Virus record (IMG/VR): IMGVR_UViG_3300044699_000012
Span: 1-31,066 of that record
DNA from: a virus
Length of the DNA stretch: 31,066 nucleotides
Strand: one strand, 5' to 3'
Made by a program: the position numbers and the translations under genes. The notes under the pieces are model-generated. The model was not told the origin of the DNA and ran no database searches. It saw nothing but the letters and a program-made list of their open reading frames with translations. Position 1 is the stretch's first letter; the number at the start of each line of letters is the position of its first letter. Below are positions 1-22,440 of this stretch, piece by piece.

Positions 1-257
1 CGGATATTTCTCCAAAGGTGGCTAAAAAGTTAGGAGAGTATTGCGATCTAGTATGTCGGTTTACTACGGAGTTAGATGCTGAGGGTAACGAATCCTTCAT
101 CATGCAAACTCGCGGAGACTTAAAGGTAATGGCTAAGTCTCGCATCAAGTTACTACCGACGCTTATGAAGGACACTTCCTTCAATTTAGTACACCGCGCA
201 AACATGAAACAAATCCGAGACGCTAAGGCACGAGTTAGGGAGTTAAACAGTGAGTGA
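1..257 (+). CDS. C-terminal part of a RecA/Sak4-like recombination ATPase (partial)
   Basis: The reading frame is open from the window edge (codons from base 3) and ends in TGA at 255-257, so only the last ~84 residues are present. The visible part runs from DISPKVAKKLGEYCDLVCRF through a short beta-rich stretch ending in QTRGD to a helical, basic end. This resembles the C-terminal strand-loop region of phage Sak4/RecA-like ATPases, where a 'PKV...LGEYCD' segment precedes a final beta hairpin. The Walker motifs would lie upstream, outside the window. The next gene, a ssDNA-binding protein, overlaps its end by eight bases, which fits a recombination/replication module. The family call rests on resemblance only, and another P-loop ATPase is possible. 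Confidence 0.45.
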   Translation, partial: DISPKVAKKLGEYCDLVCRFTTELDAEGNESFIMQTRGDLKVMAKSRIKLLPTLMKDTSFNLVHRANMKQIRDAKARVRELNSE

Positions 258-762
258 AAGTAGTGGGTACGTAGAGGTTGAAGGTGGACTTGCAGACTTG
301 GGTCTGGAAAGTTCAGATATTCCCGAGGTTAATGCTCAGACTGGTGTTGGCTATCACAAGGGTTTTCTTGTGGATGCAAAGTTCCTGGCTCACCCTGAGA
401 AGGGTCGGCAACTTGTTCTCACTTACAAGGTTCACCAGGAAGGTAGTAAGTGGAACGGTTCCACAAAGTCTGAGTTCATTGATGCAAACCGCAGCGACCC
501 TGTAGACAAGAAGAAGTGGCTGCGATTCCGTCTTGAGAATCTTGGCATTCCGCGTGAAAGTCAGGGTGCTCTTAACATCAAGGACCTCAAGGGAACTCCA
601 GTTTACTTCCGTATTCGGGAGAAGGCTGGTTACCTGAACATTGTTGAGGTTTCACTTGATACTGATGGTGAGTTTGATGCATCTATGGGAGTTGAGGCTA
701 CCGCTACAAGTGGAGCACATTCCCGTCCCGCAGTAGTTTCTGCCACTGAGGTAGACTACTAA
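250..762 (+). CDS. Phage single-stranded DNA-binding protein (DUF669/OB-fold type)
   Basis: This 170-residue protein starts at GTG 250, overlapping the previous stop. It has a short variable N-terminus, then a beta-rich core of about residues 28-140 with alternating strands and basic residues (GFLVDAKFL, RQLVLTYKVH, GTPVYFRIREK), then a flexible acidic tail ending in VDY. Strand pattern, length and tail match phage ssDNA-binding proteins of the DUF669-like group, which coat single strands during replication and recombination and contact partners through the tail. Its position between a RecA-like ATPase and the primase, glycosylase and polymerase genes supports this. A generic OB-fold protein is the alternative. 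Confidence 0.55.
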   Translation: MSESSGYVEVEGGLADLGLESSDIPEVNAQTGVGYHKGFLVDAKFLAHPEKGRQLVLTYKVHQEGSKWNGSTKSEFIDANRSDPVDKKKWLRFRLENLGIPRESQGALNIKDLKGTPVYFRIREKAGYLNIVEVSLDTDGEFDASMGVEATATSGAHSRPAVVSATEVDY

Positions 763-768
763 AATACC

Positions 769-836
769 CCTACCAAAGATTGGGCGGTCCGGGATTAAGT
801 TACCCACCCTGAACTGACAGGGTAATCTTTGGTAGG
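769..836 (+). ncRNA. Structured RNA element A, three-way junction upstream of tRNA-Leu
   Basis: A perfect 13-base inverted repeat (CCTACCAAAGATT at 769-781, its complement at 824-836) encloses two smaller hairpins. One is a perfect 6-bp stem (ACCCTG 806-811 with CAGGGT 818-823) around a six-base loop. The other can form between GGG (791-793 or 782-784) and CCC (803-805). The element starts six bases after the stop of the preceding gene and ends four bases before tRNA-Leu. There is no U-tract, so it is not an ordinary terminator. Whether it is a stable RNA, a processing signal or an attenuator cannot be told from the sequence. Confidence 0.55.
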
Positions 837-840
837 CTAG

Positions 841-923
841 GCCCCGAGTGGTGAAATAGGCAAACACAGTGGACTTAAAATCCGCCGACGAAAGTCTTAG
901 GGGTTCGATTCCCCTCTCGGGCA
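841..923 (+). tRNA. tRNA-Leu (anticodon TAA), with one extra C in the acceptor strand
   Basis: A class II tRNA with a 5-bp anticodon stem (GTGGA/TCCGC), loop CTTAAAA giving anticodon TAA, a variable arm (GAC-GAAA-GTC), a T arm (AGGGG-TTCGATT-CCCCT) and acceptor 3' strand CTCGGGC plus discriminator A923. No CCA is encoded. The 5' acceptor strand reads GCCCCGAG, one C more than the seven bases needed to pair with CTCGGGC. This is the same C-run expansion that breaks many protein genes here. It reads UUA, an A-ending codon. Confidence 0.9.
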
Positions 924-936
924 CGGAGGTATACTA

Positions 937-1213: not shown

Positions 1214-1752
1214 TCGTATTTACATGGAGTACGATTCAGACCCTTCTTTTTTACACTTGCGTAAAGATGCCAAGCAATTAATTAGAGGTAACGGTCCTAG
1301 TGATCCTTTAATTGTATTCATCGGTGAGGCACCTGGTAAACAAGAAGACGAATCTGGCGTTCCTTTTACTGGAAACTCAGGAGAACTTCTAGACGAATTA
1401 CTGCGCGAGATTGGAGTGAATCGCTCCGATGTATTCATCACCAATATTCCTCAAGTACCGACCTAAAGATAATAGAGATCCATCATGGGGTGAAATTACT
1501 GCGAGCAAACCCTATCTCGATAGAGAACTCAGTCTCCTTGACTGCGACATTATATGTACTTTGGGAAGGCACTCTCTATCGGTATTCTTTCCTGAGTTAC
1601 AACTAAACACTACACACGGCAAAGCAATCCACAAGAACGGCAAGTTTTACATTCCTCTTTACCATCCTGCAAGGGCTTTGTACAAACCGTCAGTGAAAGC
1701 CAATTCTCATCCAAGACTTTCCAAGCAATTGGGAGAGTCATTGATTCACTGA
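1182..1752 (+). CDS. Uracil-DNA glycosylase, family 4-like, lacking Fe-S cysteines (frame interrupted)
   Basis: With one base restored the protein is 189 residues and starts MTESIQQDTLDR at ATG 1182. It carries the family 4 signature: motif A GEAPGKQEDESGVPFTG, then RSDVFITNI-LKYRPKDNRDP, LGRHSLSVFFPE and motif B LYHPARALY. Such enzymes flip out and excise uracil from DNA. The frame breaks at the CC of 1449-1450. Removing one C joins ITNI to LKYRP exactly as the family requires. The four cysteines that bind the 4Fe-4S cluster in classical family 4 enzymes are absent: the motif after ITN reads KYRP, not KCRP, and no Cys is seen at the other positions. A family 5-like or divergent phage group is possible. 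Confidence 0.72.
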
Positions 1753-1763
1753 ATACCTAAACT

Positions 1764-1855
1764 CCTACAGGAAAGGACGGCGAGATGCAAGCCGCGAATA
1801 GTAATGCAGTGAGAAAATAGCATGCTCACAGAAGACATTACGCCTTTCCTGTAGG
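1764..1855 (+). ncRNA. Structured RNA element B, three-way junction upstream of tRNA-Gln
   Basis: A perfect 13-base inverted repeat (CCTACAGGAAAGG at 1764-1776, complement at 1843-1855) encloses two arms. The first is hairpin CGGC/GCCG (1778-1781 with 1791-1794). The second is stem GTAATG/CATTAC (1801-1806 with 1836-1841) containing a nested hairpin GTGAG/CTCAC (1809-1813 with 1825-1829). Nearly the whole segment is paired. It follows the glycosylase stop by 11 bases and ends five bases before tRNA-Gln. No ORF or U-tract is present. Each end of the closing stem is a copy of the CCTACAGG octamer repeated across the window. It matches no RNA class I recognise. Confidence 0.65.
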
Positions 1856-1860
1856 TTAAT

Positions 1861-1930
1861 GCCTCATAGTGTAATTGGCAACACATCAGATTTTGGTTCT
1901 GATATTTCAGGTTCGAGTCCTGATGAGGCA
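1861..1930 (+). tRNA. tRNA-Gln (anticodon TTG)
   Basis: The acceptor stem is GCCTCAT (1861-1867) with ATGAGGC (1923-1929). The anticodon stem-loop is ATCAGA-TTTTGGT-TCTGAT with anticodon TTG, the T arm is CAGG-TTCGAGT-CCTG, and the D arm is short. The discriminator is A1930 and CCA is not encoded. It lies five bases after RNA element B and 13 bases before tRNA-Lys. It decodes CAA. Confidence 0.92.
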
Positions 1931-1943
1931 GCGAATAATACAA

Positions 1944-2015
1944 GGGCCTAAAGCATTGGTGGAGATGCAGCGGACTTTTAATCCGCGGAACAGGGTTCGA
2001 CTCCCTGTGGGCCTA
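1944..2015 (+). tRNA. tRNA-Lys (anticodon TTT)
   Basis: The acceptor GGGCCTA (1944-1950) pairs with TGGGCCT (2008-2014) using two G-U pairs. The anticodon arm is GCGGA-CTTTTAA-TCCGC with anticodon TTT, and the T arm is CAGGG-TTCGACT-CCCTG. The discriminator is A2015 and CCA is not encoded. It lies just upstream of the primase-helicase gene and decodes AAA. Confidence 0.9.
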
Positions 2016-2035
2016 CATTAAAGAAAGGGGTATAA

Positions 2036-3807
2036 GTGTTGGAGATTGTGCAGGGATCAGAGAGTGATCTGCTGCAATTCCTAGACTTTATGTATGGGAA
2101 TCAGGAGGGCTATGTTTATACCTCTACTAAGGACATTAACGAGGACGACCCTAAGAAAGCATGGCGACGTCACTTCTATGAGTGGCCTAAAGATAGACCC
2201 GTAATGGTTGAACATATCAAAGCAGCAGGAGAAACCCTTGATATCTATATTGCTCCTGCGATGTTTTCCAATCAAGATAGTTCGAAAGGTTCAGTCAAAG
2301 GCTCTCATGTATTTTGGGTAGACTTAGATGGTAAAATTCCTGATGATCTGGGGGACATTCCTGCGCCTTCTTTAGTTGTTCAATCCTCTAATGAAAACAG
2401 ACAGCACTGGTATTGGCGTGTTGAAGAATTCATTAATGATATCCCTCTAATTGAGAAGGTAAATCGTGGACTTGCTTACGCCTTGGGAGCCGATGTATCT
2501 GGATGGGACGCAAATCAGGTATTGCGTCCCCCTGAGACTTTCAATCACAAAAGGCAGAGGCCCGTCGTATTGCTTGCACTTTCGCCGTGGTCTGTCAATC
2601 CTAGTTCTTTTGGCGCGATACCCGAACCGCCAAAGCCTGAAACTGAGTTCAGTCTTAATGACCTCCTTGACTCAGCGCTTATCATCTCAAAATATGAGTG
2701 GCCCAAACAGGCTTTTAATTTGTATCGCACCCAGGTGCAAAATCTTTCACACAAAGAAGGACGTTCCGGCGCTTTAATGCAGGTTGCCTATTTCTGCTGC
2801 GAAATGGGGATGAATGACCAAGAAGCGTTTACTATCCTATACAACGCAGATGAAAGATGGGGGAAGTTTAAGGACCGTCCAGATAGGGCGAGGCGTCTTA
2901 ACGATATCATTGTTAAGGCTCGAATCAAACACCCGTATAATCTTACGCTTAAAGTCCGCGACCTACCTGTATTTGGGTTTAGTGACTTTCTCAAGACTGA
3001 GGTTAGCATCGAATGGGTAATTCCAGGAATGTTAGAACAGTCAGGTCAAATGTTAATCTCGGCCGCACCAGGAGTGGGGAAATCACGGCTATCTCTAAGC
3101 GCAGGCATAAGATTAGCACTTGGGACGCAACTTTCTTCACTACGATATTACAGAACCAAGGAAGTCGATATACTTCTCCTTGGAAATGGGTTTCGCACAA
3201 CTGCTTTATTTCTTGGAGAAGATGGGGAAATCTTATACCAAGGAAGATATACAACTTTTGCAAGAAAACTTGCTAGTCGTGCCGTTAGGCGAAGCATTAT
3301 ACTTAGACAAGCAAGCCGGCCAAAAATTAGTGGAAGAATCAATTCAAAAACACGAACCCAAGGGTATCATCTTTGATTCTCTTTCTCGTACTACCTACTA
3401 AGAGTGTGAATGATGAAGAAAGCCTTAAGGCTATCATGGACTGGGATGCTACTGTCCGCAATCGTTTTGGAATTTTTAGTTGGTATGTACACCATAATCG
3501 GAAAGCAACCGTGGGTAATAAACGCCCTAAGTCTCTTGACGATCTCCTTGGTGCCACAGTTATTGCTGCTAACTGTACTTCAGCATATACCCTCTGGCGA
3601 GAAAAACCAACAGACACTGAAGTAGAAATGATTAATGTCAAACAACGTATGGGTGAGACTGAACACCCGTACTTTATTACTAGTAGTCCTGATCTTTCAT
3701 GGGTTGAAAGAGGCATCCTTAGTGACGAGATTGAATACGAAACAAACCTGCTAGGTCTTGCCTCTACCACTCCACCTGATCCTAATAACACTACACTAGG
3801 TTTCTAG
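2036..3807 (+). CDS. Replicative primase-helicase: AEP/RepB-like primase fused to RepA-like ATPase (frame interrupted twice)
   Basis: The gene starts at GTG 2036 behind AGAAAGGGG and would encode 589 residues once two bases are corrected. The N-terminal ~200 residues look like an archaeo-eukaryotic primase: HVFWVDLDG supplies metal-binding acidics, followed by SSNENRQHWYWR and VLRPPETFNHK. A helical linker (GRSGALMQVAYF...) leads to a RecA-fold helicase with Walker A SAAPGVGKSRLSL and a Walker B-like GIIFDSLSRT. It would prime and unwind DNA at the fork. The frame breaks at the GGG of 3122-3124 and the CC of 3394-3395. One base less at each gives LALGRNFLHYDIT and DSLSRTTTKSVNDEE, restoring a continuous RepA-like domain. 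The exonuclease gene follows after one base. Confidence 0.7.
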
Positions 3808-3808
3808 T

Positions 3809-4367
3809 ATGGATAGAGATGAATTCGATTTCCATCTAAGAGGGATTGAAGGATTACGATGGGCCAATTGGAGCAGATACGGAGAACTCTGGAACAGTTA
3901 GAGCAGCAGAACTCTGGTCTGGAACACACTATGCTACTGGATTTAGCCTTGCTTATCCAAACAAACACGGTCGCCTTTTATCAGGATACTTTCCGTGGAG
4001 GCACGAGGACGATAACTGTCCGAATGATTGGCTCTACGAAATTTCACCAATTCTTACTGAGCGAAAGTTAATCTTTCACAACGCACACATTGATATGGCG
4101 GCTATGTCTACCCTCGGAATTGAAATTGTAATACCACCCTTTGACACTACTGTCATGGCTCACATGTGTAATGAAGAGTTCCCCAGCAAGAAACTAGACT
4201 GGCTCTCCAAGTTCATTCTTAAAGAAGCCAAAGAAGAGATACCTAAAAAGTGGCTTCAATGGGGATGGGATCAAATCCCTCCTCAAGTAATGGAACCTTA
4301 TGCAAGAAAAGACGCTGAACTAGCATACAAACTATGGAAGATTTTCTACAGGGAGATGCAACCTTAA
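3809..4367 (+). CDS. 3'-5' exonuclease subunit/domain of a split family A DNA polymerase (frame interrupted)
   Basis: This 185-residue DnaQ-like exonuclease has all three motifs. Exo I is GADTE (after DYDGPI), Exo II is FHNAHIDMAAM, and Exo III is YARKDAELAYKLW near the C-terminus. It would proofread for the polymerase encoded at 4540-5760. The likely start is ATG 3809, one base after the previous stop. The frame breaks at GGG 3842-3844, and one G less gives MDRDEFDFHLRGLKDYDGPIGADTE. A TTG at 3846 is an alternative start. The gene ends just after Exo III, where phage polymerases normally continue into the polymerase domain, with TAATG overlapping the next small gene. That stop is not explained by an indel, so the split looks genuine. 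Confidence 0.7.
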
Positions 4368-4540
4368 TGGGACGCTATCAATTGCGCTTTGAAGTTATTG
4401 GTTCCCGGTCTGCTCATAATTCTTTGCAAGATGAGTTAGACAAAGCCAAATGGGATTGGCTTGTAAAAGAGATTAAGCGACTTATGGAGCAGTCAGACTA
4501 TCAATCTTTAGACTTAACTTGGTCTGAATCGAGTCTTTAA
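4367..4540 (+). CDS. Small protein inserted between exonuclease and polymerase genes, 57 residues
   Basis: The gene starts within TAATG at 4365-4369 and ends within TAATG at 4538-4542, so it is coupled to the genes on both sides. The protein begins MGRYQLRFEVIGSRSAHN and continues with a charged, Trp-containing helical stretch (DELDKAKWDWLVKEIKRL) and an acidic end. It has no homing endonuclease motif and no cysteines. An N-terminal strand followed by a long helix suggests a small alpha/beta fold. Its place between the halves of a split polymerase suggests, without proof, a role at the replisome. I do not recognise the family. Confidence 0.6.
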   Translation: MGRYQLRFEVIGSRSAHNSLQDELDKAKWDWLVKEIKRLMEQSDYQSLDLTWSESSL

Positions 4541-5760
4541 TGGGGCAGGATCTTCTCAAACTTCTCCCTGTAGAAGAAGAATTCATGATGTCTCTTTATC
4601 GTATGATGAGACGAGGTATTAAAGTTGACACAGACCGCGCGCAAGGACTGCTTTTGCAGGGCGAAGAACGTATGTCCACTATCGCTGAATCAATCGGGTT
4701 CCGTCCTAGTGAGGTTAGTCAACTGCTCCATTTTTACTTAACGAACTCCAATTGCCGGTACTCAAGCGATCTGCAAAGACGGGTAAACCCTCCTTCGACA
4801 AATCCTGTAATGGAGGAGTACGAACTTTTATTGGAGATGAAGGAAGATGAAGATCCTGTCATCCAACAAATACTGGAATTTCGTGGTTGGCAAAAAGCGT
4901 GTTCGAGTTTTTATAGCCCGTACCTCAGGTTACTCTCACCCGATGGACGACTTCGGTGCAGTTTTAACATGCATGGTACAAAAACCGGACGGCTTAGTAG
5001 TTCGATTCCAAATCTCCAACAGATTCCGCGCAAAGGAACAAAAGCCTGGAATATTTTTACGAAAATTTGCCTCATTGCGGAAGATGGTTGGGACCTTATT
5101 GAGTTCGACTACAAGACACTCGAATTCCGACTCGCGGCTGTTTACGCCAAAGACATTGAACTTATTTCGCGCATCAATGATGGGCAGGACCTCCATCAAG
5201 CCACAGTAGAAATGATTAAGGAAGCGGTGAAGTTACAGTATGAGCGACAGCGCATCAAAACCACCAACTTCCTCAAATTGTACGGTGGAGGTCGTGATAA
5301 ACTTGCACTCCAACTTAAAGTTAAGGCGCACAAAAGACAAGATGATACCTGTGTGTGTGATTCATGTGTCACTAATAAAGCGTGGAATAACACTTTCACT
5401 TCCATGCGCCGAGTAATGTTTGATGTTCAACAGAGAGCCGAAGAAAGACATTTTGTAAAATACTGGACAGGAAGGAAAAAGCATTATGGGACGTATTGGA
5501 ACAAGGGCGAAGAACACAAAGCATTCAACGCTCTTTGTCAAGGGGGTGGGGCTGAAGTCACTAAGAATTCTTTGGTTCGACTTAGAGATTTGGAAAGAGA
5601 AACTGTTGCACGCCCCGTACTCACAGTACACGATTCTCTTGTTTGGGAAATCAGGAAAGATGCTGTGGAGGAGTTCATTCCTCAAATCCGAGAAGTAATG
5701 GAAGACTATTCTTTTTCAGTTAAAATGGAAGTTGACGCTCACAAATGGGGAGAAGGATAA
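4540..5760 (+). CDS. DNA polymerase I-like (family A) polymerase subunit (two compensating frame breaks)
   Basis: A 406-residue polymerase domain without exonuclease. It begins MGQDLLKLLPVEEEFMMSLY and has RGIKVD, the template contact region TGRLSSSIPNLQQIP, motif A EFDYKTLEFR, motif B RQRIKTTNFLKLYGGG and motif C VHDSLVWEI, where Ser replaces the usual Glu. Between B and C lies a small cysteine cluster (CVCDSC), a possible metal knuckle. Bases 4731-4804 read in the wrong frame. Adding a T to the run at 4731-4735 and removing a C at 4804-4805 yields LLNELQLPVLKRSAKTGK and FDKSVMEEYE, which match the family. It is coupled by TAATG to genes on both sides. Confidence 0.85.
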   Translation: MGQDLLKLLPVEEEFMMSLYRMMRRGIKVDTDRAQGLLLQGEERMSTIAESIGFRPSEVSQLLHFYLTNSNCRYSSDLQRRVNPPSTNPVMEEYELLLEMKEDEDPVIQQILEFRGWQKACSSFYSPYLRLLSPDGRLRCSFNMHGTKTGRLSSSIPNLQQIPRKGTKAWNIFTKICLIAEDGWDLIEFDYKTLEFRLAAVYAKDIELISRINDGQDLHQATVEMIKEAVKLQYERQRIKTTNFLKLYGGGRDKLALQLKVKAHKRQDDTCVCDSCVTNKAWNNTFTSMRRVMFDVQQRAEERHFVKYWTGRKKHYGTYWNKGEEHKAFNALCQGGGAEVTKNSLVRLRDLERETVARPVLTVHDSLVWEIRKDAVEEFIPQIREVMEDYSFSVKMEVDAHKWGEG

Positions 5761-18995: not shown

Positions 18996-19328
18996 CTAGT
19001 TAACAATTTTTGAAGCTTTTGGAAATCTCTTTGTACGAGACGAAGTCCGCTTCTTTGCCAACTCCTGAATAGCCGCTTTACGCGCCTCAGAACCTCTACC
19101 CACTTGGCGAGCAATGTTAGGACCGCCGGAACCTGATTGCCTAGTTCCCATAAAACCACCGTTCTTGTCTCCAATGCCCTGTAAAGTGGCAGGAGCAAGA
19201 GGCTTCTTCTTTGGAGATACCACTTTACTTCCTCTCGGTTTAGAGCCGTACTCTTTCGTCCAGCGTTTAGCAATCTCAGGGTGTCTAGCCCAAAGATACT
19301 TTCGCTGAGACTCAGACTTGAACGGCAA
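18996..19328 (-). CDS. Small basic phage protein with MPFKSESQRKYLW start, 110 residues
   Basis: The N-terminus MPFKSESQRKYLWARHPEIA followed by KRWTKEYGS matches a widespread small phage protein group ('QRRYLWAKHPEIA'), whose function I cannot name. The rest is basic and Gly/Ser-rich, ending SRTKRFPKASKIVN. It is the last gene of the portal-linked cluster, followed by a strong terminator. Confidence 0.6.
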   Translation of the reverse strand: MPFKSESQRKYLWARHPEIAKRWTKEYGSKPRGSKVVSPKKKPLAPATLQGIGDKNGGFMGTRQSGSGGPNIARQVGRGSEARKAAIQELAKKRTSSRTKRFPKASKIVN

Positions 19329-21728: not shown

Positions 21729-22440
21729 TTACTGAGCAATGTCGTGGGGATCAAAACCGGCATCTGCGGGAAACCAAATGTCTCCTGGACCCGCACTATT
21801 AGATAACTGAGTCGAAATCTTTTCCGGGTTCTCTGTTTGAATCTGCTGAAACTGCGGTACGTTTGGCTGAATTCCCATCGTCATTACGATGTTCGTCAGT
21901 CTCCGAACTTCCGCTGTTTCCTGACTCAATCTGTCCCTCAGGTAAACTACTTCCGGTACTGTCTCCACGTTCACTGTCTTCAAAGAGGCTAGGGGTGTCT
22001 TGGAACGGATTAGTCGTAGTGACAACCAAGTCACGACCAATTCCAATAGGAAGATTAACACCAGCAACAGTACGATAACCATCGACAATCTTCTCCATCC
22101 CGAGGTTTTGCTCTTCCAATTGCTTTACGTAGTTGACGAGCCGAGCATTCTCTTCAACTAATTCGCGAGCCTGTTTTTCACCGAGCATTCCGATGACAGT
22201 ACCCATTGCAGTAATACATTCAGTACAAAGATACACAGCCCCAGTAAGTTCCATATCAACTTGGTGAGTATAACCATACTCACAGGAACCAGTATTTTCA
22301 GGCTGGAAATGTGGCTTAATACAAAACTCTGCATCCATACCCGTTTCGACTAGTGGACGTACACCAAATTGAACTCCGCAAGTTCTACATTGTCCAGGTG
22401 CAACAGGAGAATCCACTAGTCGAAACGTGTTGGATGACAT
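21729..22440 (-). CDS. Zinc-ribbon/coiled-coil protein upstream of portal (236 residues; frame interrupted)
   Basis: The N-terminal ~75 residues hold two CxxC pairs (GQCRTCGVQF, YLCTECITAMG) and other Cys/His residues. A helical segment follows (RELVEENARLVNYVKQLEEQ). As written this frame continues to 21799, while another open frame spans 22088-21729. Removing one base at GGGG 21992-21995 joins them through NPFQDTLASLKTV into one protein with a helical C-terminus ending in DAGFDPHDIAQ, the version preferred here. The alternative, a nested membrane protein starting near 22088, cannot be excluded. Role unknown; it sits between the acidic protein and the portal. Confidence 0.5.

Follow-up and report, generated by a model that had tools for sequence, protein, structure and literature searches.

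The segment directly ahead of the tRNA-Gln gene in the viral record IMGVR_UViG_3300044699_000012 raises the question of whether it encodes an RNA of its own or belongs to the tRNA that follows it. The window analysed here is the whole stretch of 31,066 nucleotides (positions 1 to 31,066 of that record). An earlier note on this DNA had interpreted positions 1764..1855 (+ strand, 92 nt) as an unrecognised three-way-junction RNA, and all the helices it described were recovered on the + strand where it had placed them: a perfect 13-bp closing stem (5' arm CCTACAGGAAAGG, 1764..1776, and 3' arm CCTTTCCTGTAGG, 1843..1855, both + strand), an internal 4-bp hairpin (1778..1794, arms 1778-1781/1791-1794, + strand), and an internal 6-bp stem (1801..1841, arms 1801-1806/1836-1841, + strand) with a nested 5-bp hairpin (1809-1813/1825-1829, + strand). 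The closing helix ends 4 nt before tRNA-Gln (TTG; 1860..1932, + strand). When leader and tRNA are folded together, these four nucleotides (TTAA, 1856..1859, + strand) form an unpaired linker, which would constitute the RNase P leader. The minimum free energy of the segment is -35.8 kcal/mol, compared to a mean of -19.5 for shuffled sequences (z = -5.52; 0 of 200 shuffles as good), whereas the 66-nt interior alone is within chance (z = -1.73; 13 of 200 shuffles as good). The significance of the fold is thus due to the closing stem, and the claim of pairing beyond chance holds for these 13 bp but not clearly for the junction interior, where both the 4-bp hairpin and the 6-bp stem are within expectation.

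That the segment belongs to no known RNA family was borne out by searches with the Rfam 15 covariance models, which at gathering score matched only the three tRNAs in the window and not the stem element; a permissive Rfam scan of the element yielded only chance-level matches (at most 12.1 bits). Neither ARAGORN nor Rfam detected a tRNA or tmRNA cloverleaf at 1764-1855. The features of an intrinsic terminator (GC stem, short loop, U-tract) are likewise missing, as the stem encloses a 66-nt loop and is followed by TTAA and then directly by the tRNA, in agreement with the reported absence of a U-tract, and a terminator scan did not have the closing stem (1764-1776/1843-1855) among its reports.

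A second element of the same kind is present in the window ahead of tRNA-Leu (TAA; 842..924, + strand). Here, 769-781 pairs perfectly with 824-836, giving a 13-bp stem with a span of 68 nt (769..836, + strand) that ends 5 nt upstream of the tRNA, with CTAGG (837..841, + strand) as the linker. Both stems start with CCTAC and finish with GTAGG, while their interiors share neither length nor sequence; that of the stem before tRNA-Leu is ordinary (z = 0.08). The gene upstream of this stem (250..762, + strand) has its stop codon 6 nt before it, and the 3' part of a uracil-DNA-glycosylase gene (1429..1752, + strand) stops 11 nt before the stem at 1764-1855. The third tRNA, tRNA-Lys (TTT; 1944..2016, + strand), lies only 11 nt downstream of tRNA-Gln, a space too small for a stem of its own. 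Since the flanking genes are on the same strand and tightly packed, the tRNAs probably lie within a long transcript. With the span limited to 130 nt, the window contains three perfect stems of at least 11 bp (769-836, 1764-1855, and 22342-22427), against a shuffle expectation of 0.61 at this length and 0.05 for stems of at least 13 bp, and two of the three adjoin the window's two tRNA groups.

Folding the leaders of unrelated phages revealed the same layout with different sequences. Closing stems precede tRNA-Leu (16 bp, 3 nt from the tRNA) and tRNA-Lys (12 bp, 1 nt) in ctEqG8, tRNA-Leu in DS1 (13 bp, 4 nt), tRNA-Gln (12 bp, 3 nt) and tRNA-Lys (11 bp, 5 nt) in Cuke, and tRNA-Gln in Madruga (16 bp, 3 nt). 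Many more were found in IMG/VR contigs, with stems of up to 22 bp and element spans of 27-105 nt in unrelated sequences, and some tRNA-tRNA spacers are taken up by a single closed element (L046 Tyr, span 95 in a gap of 99; L056 Val, span 90 in a gap of 94). What recurs across phages is the closing stem alone, together with its distance of 1-6 nt to the tRNA. The interiors differ among them as they do between the two stems of the window, which speaks against a three-way-junction family. The structure that the earlier note pointed out ahead of the tRNAs is real, apparently selected, and without an Rfam match, but the view of the junction as a distinct structured RNA is not supported; the segment was probably misread as such and would be one example of a leader stem that is general among phage tRNAs.

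Further leaders show variations. The T4 tRNA-Gln leader (L077, 4458-4531) has a weaker 9-bp stem (ATTATTAAC/GTTAATAAT) that ends directly at the tRNA, and the leader of a tRNA-Arg (L063, upstream of the tRNA at 5472-5546, - strand) contains nested repeats of the GGGTAGGACA/TGTCCTACCC type that differ from the other leaders. In Streptomyces phages (L076, ~19015-19057, and its relatives L441-L444), a tRNA-Ala leader hairpin is combined with a sigma70-like promoter (TTGACA, 17 nt, TATGAT or TAGTAT), and the -10 box is located inside the hairpin loop, so that the stem may act in one transcript and the promoter drive another.

To quantify the arrangement, helices with at most one G-T pair that end 1-6 nt upstream of a tRNA were counted, a definition that includes the 13-bp helix at 1764-1855. 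Near-identical leaders were removed beforehand; the remaining phages are still interrelated, and the counts are thus not independent events. In the leaders of Streptomyces and Mycobacterium phages, 29 of 150 had a helix of at least 8 bp (4.5 in shuffles), and helices of at least 11 bp were found in 23 of 775 IMG/VR leaders (1.2 in shuffles) and in 11 of 204 tRNA-tRNA spacers of 40-129 nt (0.1 in shuffles). Maximal stems of at least 11 bp peak 2-5 nt from the tRNA and fall to background level by ~12 nt. About 96% of the phage tRNAs in the mixed set have no stem of this length, and the leader stem is thus not obligatory. The mean pairing-probability profile is clear for Faust and Bongo and weak for the mixed set, because the stems occur in a subset only. 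Forced-pair folding energy had no discriminating power as a stem measure.

The enrichment ahead of phage tRNAs is not found ahead of the host tRNAs tested. The mean helix length in Streptomyces phage leaders is 5.97 bp compared to 5.07 in shuffled sequences, a difference of about seven standard deviations, whereas there was no helix excess in 42 tRNA leaders of Streptomyces chromosomes (5.45 vs. 5.38 shuffled) or in 133 other bacterial tRNA leaders, mostly of Bacteroidota (5.54 vs. 5.49 shuffled). As far as tested, the trait therefore belongs to phages. Helices starting 1-6 nt downstream of phage tRNAs are also somewhat enriched (at least 12 bp in 16 of 816, vs. 4-8 in the next windows), and part of the signal may thus reflect a general tendency of spacers to fold; these downstream helices could be terminators, or else the 5' arms of stems that close a spacer.

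The searched collections yielded no homologue of the 1764-1855 stem itself. DNA matches of the element in phages were limited to the tRNA part, and scans with neighbouring proteins recovered none or one distant locus each (one for the portal scan); the two relatives obtained by protein scans are both without tRNAs. A distant relative without tRNAs (L002) encodes a perfect 13-bp hairpin with a 6-nt loop and no U-tract (4386-4417) between the primase gene and the gene upstream of it, the site that the tRNAs occupy in the window. Compensatory change could be followed in other phages. In the tRNA-Asn leaders of Faust, TunaTartare, MeganTheeKilla, and Patelgo, two double changes are seen while 7 of 7 pairs are kept, and there are none in slid controls; with four sequences, and with 24 of 500 shuffles reaching the same number, this covariation is modest evidence. 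The tRNA-Gln leaders of Cuke (arms TTTGGTGGAT/ATCCACCAAA) and Fowlmouth (arms ATTGGCTAGG/CCTAGCCAAT), both with the tRNA downstream of an integrase gene, differ on both sides in 6 of 10 pairs, all of which are still paired in an alignment made by hand from the outer end, because MAFFT inserts gaps.

We consider it probable, at roughly 60%, that 1764-1855 acts as a leader-closing stem for the tRNA, sequestering the spacer, leaving RNase P a short single-stranded linker, insulating the tRNA, and capping the upstream mRNA. It would thus probably be a tRNA-processing or insulating element and not a new riboswitch or ribozyme. The feature itself is supported computationally: the stem is paired, lies at a set place, recurs ahead of phage tRNAs with no enrichment ahead of the tested host tRNAs, and shows compensatory changes in other phages. 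For its mechanism we infer the following steps. By pairing with each other, the ends of the spacer that separates the upstream gene from the tRNA would fold away all of it, leaving a single-stranded linker of 4-5 nt as the sole join between the closed spacer and the tRNA. As phage tRNAs appear to be embedded in long mRNA-like transcripts, the stem may stop the tRNA from pairing with spacer or mRNA. It would also present a short, defined single-stranded leader to RNase P for the 5' cut, and the released upstream RNA would end in a hairpin with a tail of 4-5 nt, which may resist 3' exonucleases. The stem interior with its three-way junction would be filler. A stable structure near the cleavage site alters the kcat/Km of RNase P (PMC10731613), which means that the stem need not help RNase P and could instead slow cleavage.

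The capping step might by itself account for the stem: after the RNase P cut, the helix with its overhang of 4-5 nt would block 3' exonucleases on the upstream mRNA, with no gain for the tRNA. The short overhang fits this idea, with the window stems beginning 6 and 11 nt past stop codons and ending 4-5 nt before the cut, as does the hairpin at 4386-4417 of the distant relative, which lies behind the gene upstream of the primase although there is no tRNA. However, tRNA-tRNA spacers, which offer no mRNA in need of protection, have such stems no less often (11 of 204 vs. 23 of 775), and mRNA protection is therefore unlikely to be the whole reason for their presence. Still less probable is that the three-way junction is functional and the segment a structured RNA in its own right, be it a small RNA, a ribozyme, or a riboswitch. 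The strong fold of a non-coding segment without an Rfam match would agree with such an RNA, and T4 has two small stable RNAs, C and D (rnaC, rnaD), annotated within its cluster of tRNAs, likewise structured non-coding RNAs beside phage tRNAs. Yet the interior that should carry the function is within chance (z = -1.73) and is common neither to both window stems nor to other phages. The T4 RNAs are annotated as stable products, whereas the phage stem is probably a discarded leader.

An RNase III processing site separating the tRNA from the mRNA is about equally improbable, if not slightly more so. The perfect helix of 13 bp here and stems of up to 22 bp elsewhere would be suitable, but Streptomyces phages have stems of 6-10 bp at the same position, and stems of this length are too short to be usual RNase III substrates. 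The proximity of the stem to the stop codon could also indicate that the upstream gene ends in an intrinsic terminator, or in one lacking a U-tract. This is very unlikely given the missing U-tract, the 66-nt loop, and the silence of the terminator scan on the closing stem, and the gap of 4-5 nt between stem and tRNA is too small to hold a promoter for the tRNA. Chance pairing, or an inverted repeat acting at the DNA level without a role in RNA, would be in line with the lack of a direct homologue, but we regard it as scarcely credible in view of the z-score of -5.5, the second stem at the same spot before tRNA-Leu, and the enrichment and double changes in other phages.

As a leader-closing stem, the element resembles several known systems. 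Bacterial pre-tRNAs can have structured 5' leaders, which are also located immediately 5' of the tRNA and, by the reading preferred here, would share their removal by RNase P with the phage stem. The phage stem differs from them in being long, perfect, and closing the whole spacer, and the tested host leaders had no such excess. In pre-rRNA processing stems, a long helix is likewise formed from spacer ends beside a stable RNA, but that helix encloses the RNA, while the phage helix closes the spacer next to it and may not require RNase III. The 3' stabiliser hairpins of bacterial mRNAs (REP-like) are also placed near a processed 3' end; in contrast to these, the phage leader stems are not repeated in sequence and are tied to tRNAs.

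On a broader scale, we tentatively suggest, at somewhat less than even odds, that phages widely use a sequence-free RNA punctuation, in which a stem closing the spacer 1-6 nt before a tRNA allows clean excision of the tRNA from protein operons and caps the upstream mRNA. Host tRNAs are transcribed from units of their own, which would explain why their leaders are without the stem. No earlier description of phage tRNA leader stems or hairpins was found in the open-access papers searched, a scope that makes this weak evidence of absence. The excision of phage tRNAs from polycistronic transcripts has apparently been little studied, and a mark visible from sequence alone makes it testable. Leader stems may also help in annotating phage intergenic regions that resemble new RNA families, where caution is needed so that such folds are not each named a riboswitch or ribozyme.

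Other features of the window were also inspected. The ends of the closing stem had been linked to a repeated octamer, CCTGTAGG, which occurs 14 times in the window. In nearly all cases, the late-gene copies are in frame, reading CCT GTA GG (Pro-Val-Gly) or, on the other strand, CCT ACA GG (Pro-Thr-Gly). As these copies are explained by in-frame codons, the occurrence in the stem is unconnected to them, and the octamer was rejected as a signal tied to the stem; the link is a coincidence of chance and codon habit. The genes for uracil-DNA glycosylase, primase/helicase, and DNA polymerase A (1134-1752, 2036-3807, and 3846-5760) each appear split into two or three frames, which suggests that the contig contains frameshift errors or that the frameshifts are genuine. 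At 22342-22427, a perfect 16-bp inverted repeat with a span of 86 nt, longer than any other perfect stem in the window, has no tRNA nearby; it lies within a 213-aa reading frame of the - strand, very close to its start.
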